Both the position numbers and the translations under genes were made by a program. The notes under the pieces were generated by a model. That model saw only the letters and a program-made list of their open reading frames with translations. It did not search any database and had not been told where the DNA came from. A DNA stretch of 64,000 nt, from positions 317,600-381,599 of the forward strand of contig JAGXKG010000001.1 in NCBI GenBank assembly GCA_018335335.1. The letters are read 5' to 3'. Shown here piece after piece: positions 104 to 63,054 of this stretch. The DNA is from Candidatus Thorarchaeota archaeon (GTDB lineage Archaea; Asgardarchaeota; Thorarchaeia; Thorarchaeales; Thorarchaeaceae). Within the stretch, counting starts at the first letter, position 1; each line of letters starts with the position of its first letter.

Positions 104-213
104 GCCGGGGTATCCTAGCGGTACGGAGACGGTCTCGAAAACCGTTGCCCTTTGGGCTCGTGGGTTCGAAAGAGTCCATCCTTGGATGGTTTCCGATTTT
201 CCCATCCCCGGCG
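104..213 (+). tRNA. tRNA-Ser(CGA) with apparent T-loop intron
   Basis: Acceptor strands gccgggg (104-110) and ccccggc (206-212) pair perfectly. The anticodon stem is 129-133/141-145 and the loop carries anticodon CGA at 136-138. A long variable arm (147-150/154-157, gccc/gggc) is typical of tRNA-Ser. The T stem is split: its 5' strand with TTCGAA is at 160-170, but its 3' strand cccat is at 201-205. About 29 extra bases (171-199) sit between T-loop positions 59 and 60. They hold a 6-bp hairpin (176-181/184-189). Removing them leaves 81 nt. No CCA is encoded. The intron is inferred from folding; a clean bulge-helix-bulge could not be drawn by eye. Confidence 0.85.
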
Positions 214-27065: not shown

Positions 27066-27228
27066 CATGGCGGCGCGACCGTGAGAAAGAAGGACCATTG
27101 GCAAACAAGACCCACATAATGCGTCATACATTTCTTTTCTCGATTGCAAGAGTGACTAGGTTGATGTATGGGATACGGCTGCGTTTGGAATACTTTTAAT
27201 AGCGAACTAGACTCGTCACAGACAATCT

Positions 27229-27286
27229 GGTGATGAAGTCCACCGCGATATCATCGAAACCGCCTTGGGCTGATGACTTCTTTTGG
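27229..27286 (+). ncRNA. Fluoride riboswitch (crcB motif)
   Basis: The sequence fits the crcB-motif consensus: GGTGATGAAGTCCACC (27229-27244), a short variable stem, AAACCGCC (27257-27264) and GGGCTGATGACTTCTT (27267-27282). AAGTC and GACTT pair, as required for the pseudoknotted fold. It lies 14 bases before crcB. A TATA-like tacttttaatag (27191-27202) lies upstream. Fluoride binding should turn on the exporter. Confidence 0.88.
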
Positions 27287-27299
27287 ACGGTGTTGAATC

Positions 27300-27692
27300 A
27301 TGCGTGACATAGTACTTGTAGGACTAGGTGGGTTTGTTGGAGCTGTACTGAGATATATCCTCTCAGGGGTACTCCAGACTGAAGGGGAATCATTTCCTGT
27401 GGGTACTCTATTTGTGAATTTCACCGGGACATTGATACTGGGATTCGTGGTCTATTCAGCAGAATTCCTCGATTTCATATCTCATCATATGGGCCTTTTT
27501 CTCACAATGGGGGTTTTGGGAGCATTCACCACTATGTCAACGTTTGGTCTCGAAGCTTTCAGGATGTTCGAGAGCGGCAACTACGTCTCTTTAGCTGTGT
27601 ATATCGTTGGAACAATTGCCCTCGTCTTCATAGGGATGTTCATTGCAAGGAACTCTGCCCATGTTCTATGCTCGATTCATCTGGAAAACTAG
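27300..27692 (+). CDS. crcB: Fluoride channel CrcB/Fluc
   Basis: 130 residues with four membrane helices. GGFVGAVLRYILS, then PVGTLFVNFTGTLILGF (the pore-lining Asn), then GVLGAFTTMSTFGLEAF with the phenylalanine/threonine track are typical of Fluc. It dimerises in the membrane and exports fluoride. A fluoride riboswitch lies immediately upstream. It sits between two pieces of a broken mvhD-like gene, as though the riboswitch-crcB unit had arrived by insertion. Confidence 0.95.
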   Translation: MRDIVLVGLGGFVGAVLRYILSGVLQTEGESFPVGTLFVNFTGTLILGFVVYSAEFLDFISHHMGLFLTMGVLGAFTTMSTFGLEAFRMFESGNYVSLAVYIVGTIALVFIGMFIARNSAHVLCSIHLEN

Positions 27693-59836: not shown

Positions 59837-59946
59837 GAACTCAGAACAATCTTGACTTCTTTTAATGATTTAGTTGCGCGTGCCCGTGAAATTGTAATAC
59901 ATGTGCTCCCTTCTCTGGAGGAAAATGAATTATGAATATAGAGAAT

Positions 59947-60059
59947 GGCCAGTTTGCGGGCCTGTCACGCGCGCTAGCGCGCACATGTCCCGCAACGACC
60001 CCGGGCTTAACTTCCGAGTTCAGCCGAGTTCGGGTGTGCCCCGGGGACTATGACCGGCC
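59947..60059 (-). rRNA. rrf: 5S ribosomal RNA
   Basis: Minus strand GGCCGGT...ACTGGCC form helix I. The conserved CCCGAACTCGG and GAAGTTAAGC are present. About 113 nt. A TATA box (tttaaacc, 60085-60093) lies 26-34 bases upstream. No 16S or 23S is nearby, so it is an isolated 5S gene. Confidence 0.95.
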
Positions 60060-60112
60060 TATTTTCCGGTTAGCTGATGTACGGTTTTAAACCTTATCGT
60101 AAAGACAATATG

Positions 60113-61923: not shown

Positions 61924-62120
61924 TGGTGGGAAGGATGGGAGCGTCAGACCACTTGGAAATCAAGTAACCATTTGAACCCACGCTCGTACCTCAACCTGGG
62001 GCCGAACCCCGGGGTTTACGAGTGTCGCCATGACGACGTCATTTAATGACCCGCTCTTCACAGACTCGAAATGAGCCTAGATCTGGAGCCCGTCGCCATA
62101 CCGGACTAGGCCACCTTCCC
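61924..62120 (-). tRNA. tRNA-Trp(CCA) with three apparent introns
   Basis: Minus strand: acceptor GGGAAGG (62120-62114) pairs with CCTTCCC (61934-61928), A73 at 61927, encoded CCA at 61926-61924. D stem GCC/GGC. Anticodon loop CTCCAG with CCA at 62086-62084. Stem 5' ACGGG (62093-62089) pairs with CTCGT (62022-62018), one GU. Intron 1 is 62024-62082 at 37/38 (59 nt). The variable region 61982-62017 is 36 nt instead of 5, implying a ~31-nt intron. T stem GTGGG (61981-61977) pairs with CCCAT (61939-61935), with a 30-nt intron 61941-61970 at 59/60 holding a hairpin ACTTG/CAAGT. Spliced length is 74 nt plus CCA. Confidence 0.85.
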
Positions 62121-62294: not shown

Positions 62295-62364
62295 AACCCG
62301 GGAAAAACACGAACTATGTATGAACGGGATTCCAAACCAACGTGACGGTTACCAGGTGATGAAC

Positions 62365-63054
62365 ATGACGGACGATGATATGGTTTTGCAGCGGATAGCT
62401 GGCGTAGACGAAGCCGGGCGCGGTCCCATGATTGGTCCTATGGTCATCTGTGGTGTGACGTTTGAAGCAGCGGATATCCAGCATCTTGAAACTCTTGGAG
62501 TCAAAGACTCGAAATTACTGACCGCAAAGAGACGGGAGGAGCTGTATGAACACATCTCGGAGCTGGCGGAAAACACCGTTATCACATCCATATCAGCTGC
62601 TGAGATAGATGATGCTCGGAAACGAGGTATCTCGCTGAATGATATCGAGCTCGATGCCTTTGTCTCGACCATAAATGAGCTGCAACCTTCCGAGGTATTT
62701 GTGGACGCGGCAGATGTTGATGCAGATAGATTTGGAAGGCAGATTATCGAACGGTGCACTCTGACTCCCAATTGCAGAGTTGTCTCAGAGCACAGAGCTG
62801 ACATCACGTATCCGGTAGTTTCGGCTGCATCAGTACTTGCAAAAGTTGAACGCGACCAGCGGATAAAGGAACTACATGCCATTCATGGCGATTTTGGTTC
62901 TGGATACCCCTCTGACTCTGTTAGTGTGGGATTCATCCAATCAGTGGTTTCGGAAACTGGAGATGTACCAGAAATTGTTAGACGTACATGGAGTCCGGTC
63001 CGAAAAATCATGTTGGATGCGAAGACGACACAATCCCAGCTTGACTCCTTCTAG
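62365..63054 (+). CDS. rnhB: Ribonuclease HII
   Basis: 229 residues from ATG 62365, preceded by AGGTGAT. The active-site start AGVDEAGRGPMIGPMVI (DEAGRG) and VFVDAADVDAD are present, with AASVLAKVERD. Cleaves RNA in RNA-DNA hybrids. Upstream Met codons at 62320 and 62359 are alternatives. Convergent with the regulator at the window edge. Confidence 0.94.
   Translation: MTDDDMVLQRIAGVDEAGRGPMIGPMVICGVTFEAADIQHLETLGVKDSKLLTAKRREELYEHISELAENTVITSISAAEIDDARKRGISLNDIELDAFVSTINELQPSEVFVDAADVDADRFGRQIIERCTLTPNCRVVSEHRADITYPVVSAASVLAKVERDQRIKELHAIHGDFGSGYPSDSVSVGFIQSVVSETGDVPEIVRRTWSPVRKIMLDAKTTQSQLDSF

Follow-up and report, generated by a model that had tools for sequence, protein, structure and literature searches.

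The tRNA-Trp gene and its surroundings

The DNA considered here, termed the window, is a stretch of 64,000 nucleotides from a Thorarchaeota (Asgard) MAG of 2.94 Mb, which consists of 176 contigs and is 97% complete. The closest named relatives of the DnaG protein encoded in the window, at up to 66% identity, come from Candidatus Thorarchaeota MAGs, which places the genome in that group. A gene of 197 nt for tRNA-Trp(CCA), the terminal CCA being encoded, occupies positions 62120-61924 of the minus strand (Table 1). Removal of three inserts, situated at 37/38, at the 5′ end of the variable region and in the T-loop, gives a mature RNA of 74 nt plus CCA (77 nt in total) in which all stems pair, namely acceptor (GGGAAGG/CCUUCCC), D (GCC/GGC), anticodon (ACGGG/CUCGU) and T (GUGGG/CCCAU). 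A sequence-only reading of this DNA had described such a gene, a normal 74-nt tRNA-Trp followed by CCA whose four stems could be paired once 59, about 31 and 30 nt were taken out at 37/38, in the variable region and at 59/60. The lengths, sites and pairing are as that reading described them. The strand, which it left unstated, is now assigned and the variable-region site is placed exactly at 43/44.

Applied to the unspliced window ARAGORN calls no tRNA, and an Rfam scan of the region around the gene, with E values up to 10, gives no tRNA match. With the three inserts removed ARAGORN calls tRNA-Trp with anticodon CCA. Annotation tools can thus leave genomes of this type seemingly without an essential tRNA. 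Is there a second copy? Another intact tRNA-Trp gene, which in combination with a lack of spliced reads would on the terms of the sequence-only reading count against it, was not seen in this MAG; at 97% completeness and in 176 contigs, a further copy could be missing from the assembly.

Introns are common in this genome. Judged by length and by eye they occur in 22 of the 36 readable tRNA genes, tRNA-Trp included. T-loop introns at 59/60 are also present in tRNA-Lys(UUU), tRNA-Thr(CGU) and tRNA-Ser(CGA), and D-loop introns are seen as well (L023, L083 and L084). The tRNA-Ser(CGA) gene lies within the window. It does not directly encode CCA and is missed by ARAGORN when unspliced; the spliced form, with CCA added for the test, is called as tRNA-Ser (cga).

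Several other features of the window can be named. An RNase HII gene, named by eye from the motif GVDEAGRGP, adjoins the tRNA-Trp gene, and the two are also neighbours, in either relative orientation, in several relatives (L035, L036, L046, L048). A fluoride riboswitch is positioned directly upstream of an open reading frame that resembles the fluoride channel CrcB, a name again given by eye. The 5S rRNA gene, the only rRNA found in this stretch, has a modest Rfam score of 48.9 bits, and many of its pairs are non-standard.

Table 1. Features of the window, with tRNA-Trp exons and introns listed in the order of transcription
Feature	Window positions	Strand	Description	Evidence or occurrence
tRNA-Trp exon 1	62083..62120	-	tRNA positions 1-37, GGGAAGGUGGCCUAGUCCGGUAUGGCGACGGGCUCCAG	same letters in sister genome
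Intron 1	62024..62082	-	59 nt at 37/38 (canonical site); relaxed hBH-type; h = 27-31/39-43, H = CUCC/GGCG (3/4 pairs)	present in 43/43 family genomes recovered; covarying internal hairpin
Exon 2	62018..62023	-	positions 38-43, ACUCGU	
Intron 2	61987..62017	-	31 nt at 43/44; relaxed HBh'; H = CUC/GAG, h' = AACC/GGUU	register scan and shuffles; site common to G001, G002, G008, G038/G047
Exon 3	61971..61986	-	positions 44-59, CGAGC GUGGG UUCAAA	register scan, sister genome
Intron 3	61941..61970	-	30 nt at 59/60 (T-loop); near-strict hBHBh'; h = T-stem, H = UUCA/UGAC (3/4), h' 8/8	site common to G008, G010, G011, G221 and to tRNA-Lys, -Thr and -Ser of same genome
Exon 4	61924..61940	-	U60 to 76 with encoded CCA	
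tRNA-Ser(CGA)	104..213	+	CCA not directly encoded	
Intron of tRNA-Ser(CGA)	171..199	+	29 nt, T-loop	
Fluoride riboswitch	27220..27289	+		
CrcB-like ORF	27300..27692			named by eye
5S rRNA	59944..60061	-		Rfam
RNase HII	62320..63054	+		named by eye

Splice motifs and a probable order of intron removal

The positions of introns 2 and 3 were assessed with a register scan, in which all registers compatible with a T-loop of 7 nt or a variable region of 5 nt were scored for bulge-helix-bulge (BHB) pairs, to a maximum of 12. The best register for intron 3 is 59/60, with 11 of the 12 motif pairs against 7 for the runner-up. Six registers leave a 5-nt variable region and 43/44 is the best of these, with 9 pairs, the runner-up again having 7; the same register ranks first in the relatives G001, G002 and G008. 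Comparison with shuffled introns gives p values of about 0.0004 at 59/60 and 0.009 at 43/44 in this genome, and of 0.0002-0.0016 at 43/44 in five other genomes, two of which (G038 and G047) are outside the family, but since these are mononucleotide shuffles, run for the two sites at registers first picked by eye, the values are only indicative. The register scan is the less biased test.

As modelled, BHB-compatible folds, which the sequence-only reading had named as a check, exist at 43/44 and 59/60, with a partial candidate fold at 37/38. At 59/60 the motif is nearly strict, with the five base pairs of the T-stem providing the outer helix. The other two are relaxed, and in both the central helix is incomplete with three pairs of four. 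At 43/44 this helix involves CUC of positions 39-41, the inner h' has six pairs of eight and there is no outer h. At 37/38 the anticodon stem would serve as the outer helix (5 bp), the three pairs of H are present in all 29 of the long-intron sequences aligned and there is no clear h'. A hairpin in intron 2, GGGGUUCGGCCCC, was tried as the T-arm and rejected by hand, as the stem would pair out of register.

The insert in the variable region can fold as a hairpin of its own, so that one might picture it as a long extra arm. With the T-loop insert alone removed, moreover, ARAGORN still calls a tRNA. Might the 37/38 insert then be the only intron, with the other two retained in an unusually expanded tRNA? 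We regard this as extremely unlikely. Both inserts are absent from relatives precisely at the BHB junctions, the shuffle tests and register scans favour splice motifs, and an additional 30 nt in the T-loop would be expected to destroy the contact between D-loop and T-loop.

Intron 1 has structure of its own. In an alignment of the 29 long-intron sequences an internal hairpin covaries strongly, five of its six pairs showing a change in both partners in at least one sequence, and the covariation score is reached by none of 500 shuffles, with the caution that such counts can be inflated by the relatedness of the sequences. A second conserved helix joins the 3′ strand of the intron, (C)CGUCGUC, to GGCGACG(G) of exon 1 (99% of cells paired, five cells changed on both sides); it competes with the anticodon stem. 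In addition, RNAalifold predicts pairing between the invariant GGGUC of the intron and GGCUC of the exon.

The conserved helix between intron 1 and exon 1 leaves the conformation in which 37/38 is cleaved unsure, and it could be argued that cleavage occurs in this alternative fold, or that the intron sites have been placed one or two nucleotides away from their true positions. Such an error is very unlikely. The loop sizes of the tRNA, the identity of the mature sequence with that of a sister species and the register scans fix the variable-region and T-loop sites, whilst the purine expected at position 37 fixes intron 1 to within about one nucleotide.

Nucleotides 39-41 are taken up by the 43/44 motif, yet the anticodon-stem helix of the 37/38 motif requires them too, and the two motifs cannot form together. 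From this mutual exclusion we infer that splicing is ordered; introns 1 and 2 would be removed one after the other, that at 43/44 probably first. The authors of tRNAscan-SE 2.0 (PMC8450103) describe the same for archaeal introns that lie close together. When the precursor is folded as a whole, the minimum-energy structure differs from the spliceable form and is no more stable than those of shuffled sequences (z -0.81); since introns 1 and 2 pair with the same exon bases in competition, this calculation tells little.

Relatives and a possible record of introns gained, lost and slid

Relatives were searched at the DNA level, the phylum was searched with a pattern and fetched regions were inspected. 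Together these steps recovered tRNA-Trp genes with matching exons for 43 genomes in the family, this one included. Tallies counted from the search outputs show the 37/38 intron in all 43 genes, as the sole intron in 27. The other 16 carry one to three extra introns, which lie in the D-loop, at 43/44, at 53/54 or in the T-loop. Ten genes have two introns in total (G007, G010, G011, G013, G015, G023, G027, G029, G032 and G221) and five have three (this genome, G001, G002, G009 and G019), although the G002 contig stops before the T-loop and the gene may hold more. The gene of G008 (L033 1462-1687, 226 nt) contains four, at 17/17a in the D-loop, 37/38, 43/44 and 59/60, whereas its congener G018 has the 37/38 intron only. 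Where the variable-region and T-loop inserts are absent the exons run uninterrupted through those sites, for example ACUCGU-CGAUC-GUGGGUUCGAAUCCCAC.

The comparison with relatives, also suggested by the sequence-only reading, is most instructive for the sister species G001. The mature tRNA-Trp sequences of the two genomes show no differences over 77 positions, CCA included, whilst their introns differ at 2 of 59, 4 of 31 and 13 of 30 aligned columns for introns 1, 2 and 3 respectively (19 of 120 overall). An identical product flanked by differing introns indicates selection on the tRNA rather than decay. This bears on the suggestion that the locus is a decayed pseudogene, broken by insertions, with the real tRNA-Trp encoded elsewhere. 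The three insertions and the failure of ARAGORN and Rfam to find the gene might be taken that way. The exon identity, the intact stems, the single copy found and the match of the junctions to BHB pairing all speak against it, and we give a pseudogene next to no chance. The gene appears to be functional.

The T-loop intron of G001 (gene at L032 1506-1701) is homologous in sequence to intron 3 yet fits a different site. Placed at 59/60 it failed the BHB shuffle test (p 0.34), and the register scan moved it to 56/57, where all 12 pairs form. In G013 the scan places the T-loop intron at 58/59. Removal at 59/60 in this genome and at 56/57 in G001 would yield the same mature T-loop, UUCAAAU, and on the modelled pairing it looks as though the splice site has slid between 59/60 and 56/57 in these sister species.

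On a tree of the splicing endonuclease with 28 labelled genomes the fewest changes needed are five for the D-loop intron, two for 43/44 and four for the T-loop, although the resolution is too weak for firm counts of gain or loss. Are these genes a live record of non-canonical introns being gained, lost and slid? The number of introns, from one to four, the move from 59/60 to 56/57 with the mature tRNA unchanged and the mutual exclusion of the 43/44 and 37/38 motifs, which would force an order of splicing, could be read in this way, a view to which we give even odds. Related genes with one to four introns and an apparently moved splice site in any case offer material for testing how introns are gained and lost and in what order they are spliced.

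Genes for tRNA-Trp with two or three introns are found in other Asgard families also, at L096 (G211), L093 (G123), L076/L077 (G047/G038) and L087/L089 (G059/G049).

Splicing machinery and comparison with known systems

The genome encodes two paralogues of the splicing endonuclease. The catalytic subunit, of 193 amino acids, is nearest to the A. pernix protein 3p1z (E 1.1e-52) and retains the catalytic Tyr, His and Lys. Its loop GQPVGIRKPK aligns with GQPLDVEKPR, placing a lysine at the position of A. pernix Lys44, and this lysine is kept in all 30 sequences of the family that were examined. In crenarchaeal enzymes the loop lysine is held responsible for broad substrate specificity (PMC6379350; PMC12397907). 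The second subunit, of 199 amino acids, has neither the catalytic histidine nor the specificity loop. Judged from these sequences the enzyme is predicted to be of the two-subunit (αβ)2 type with a crenarchaeal specificity loop on the catalytic subunit. Asgard genomes of other families generally have two endonuclease subunits as well. A gene for the ligase RtcB is present.

We assign a probability of roughly 0.93 to the following reading. The locus is the functional, and apparently the only, tRNA-Trp(CCA) gene of this thorarchaeal genome, and its transcript contains three protein-spliced introns at 37/38, 43/44 and 59/60. The (αβ)2-type endonuclease with its crenarchaeal-type loop would cut each BHB-like junction and RtcB would join the exons to produce the normal 74-nt tRNA plus CCA. 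The relaxed motifs at 37/38 and 43/44 would need an enzyme of broad specificity, and the organism's own enzyme is very probably able to remove all three introns.

Multi-intron tRNA genes are well documented in Thermoproteales (Sugahara 2008 and Fujishima 2010, as cited in PMC4033280 and PMC8450103). The thorarchaeal system shares with these the combination of introns at 37/38 and at non-canonical sites, BHB motifs that range from strict to relaxed and an (αβ)2-type endonuclease with the specificity loop. It differs in that the host phylum is Asgard and that the four introns of G008 exceed the maximum of three per tRNA stated in those two citing papers. The sequence-only reading considered three introns unusual for an Asgard-like gene set. 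That opinion is outdated, given the many cases in this family and in other Asgard lineages and given that a 2024 report, in the passages relevant here (PMC11291895), describes multi-intron tRNAs in Atabeyarchaeia and Freyarchaeia. These too are Asgard lineages with several introns per tRNA gene and non-canonical positions. They belong to different classes, and main-text passages of that report contain no tRNA data for Thorarchaeota; overlap with the present observations, including four-intron genes, is possible.

The kind of gene is therefore already known, and thorarchaeal tRNA-Trp adds one real, well-supported case. The new details are the four-intron relative, the apparent shift of the T-loop splice site and the splice structures that appear mutually exclusive and imply ordered splicing. 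No report on tRNA introns of Thorarchaeota was found in the open-access literature searched. The observations extend multi-intron tRNA genes and the crenarchaeal-type specificity loop of the endonuclease to Thorarchaeota. Eukaryotes are believed to have arisen from Asgard archaea.

A final comparison concerns H. volcanii, where tRNA-Trp has an intron that contains a box C/D guide (PMC4090602). In both organisms the tRNA-Trp(CCA) intron is located at 37/38 and is longer than typical tRNA introns. Intron 1 of this thorarchaeal family differs in that inspection by eye shows no box C/D arrangement with a stretch antisense to the anticodon. In the tRNA-Trp introns of four genomes from other Asgard families (G038, G047, G049 and G052) a CUGGAGC antisense does stand beside GAUGA-like boxes. 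Box C/D-like antisense to the anticodon is present in several of the 37/38 introns of tRNA-Trp from such families.
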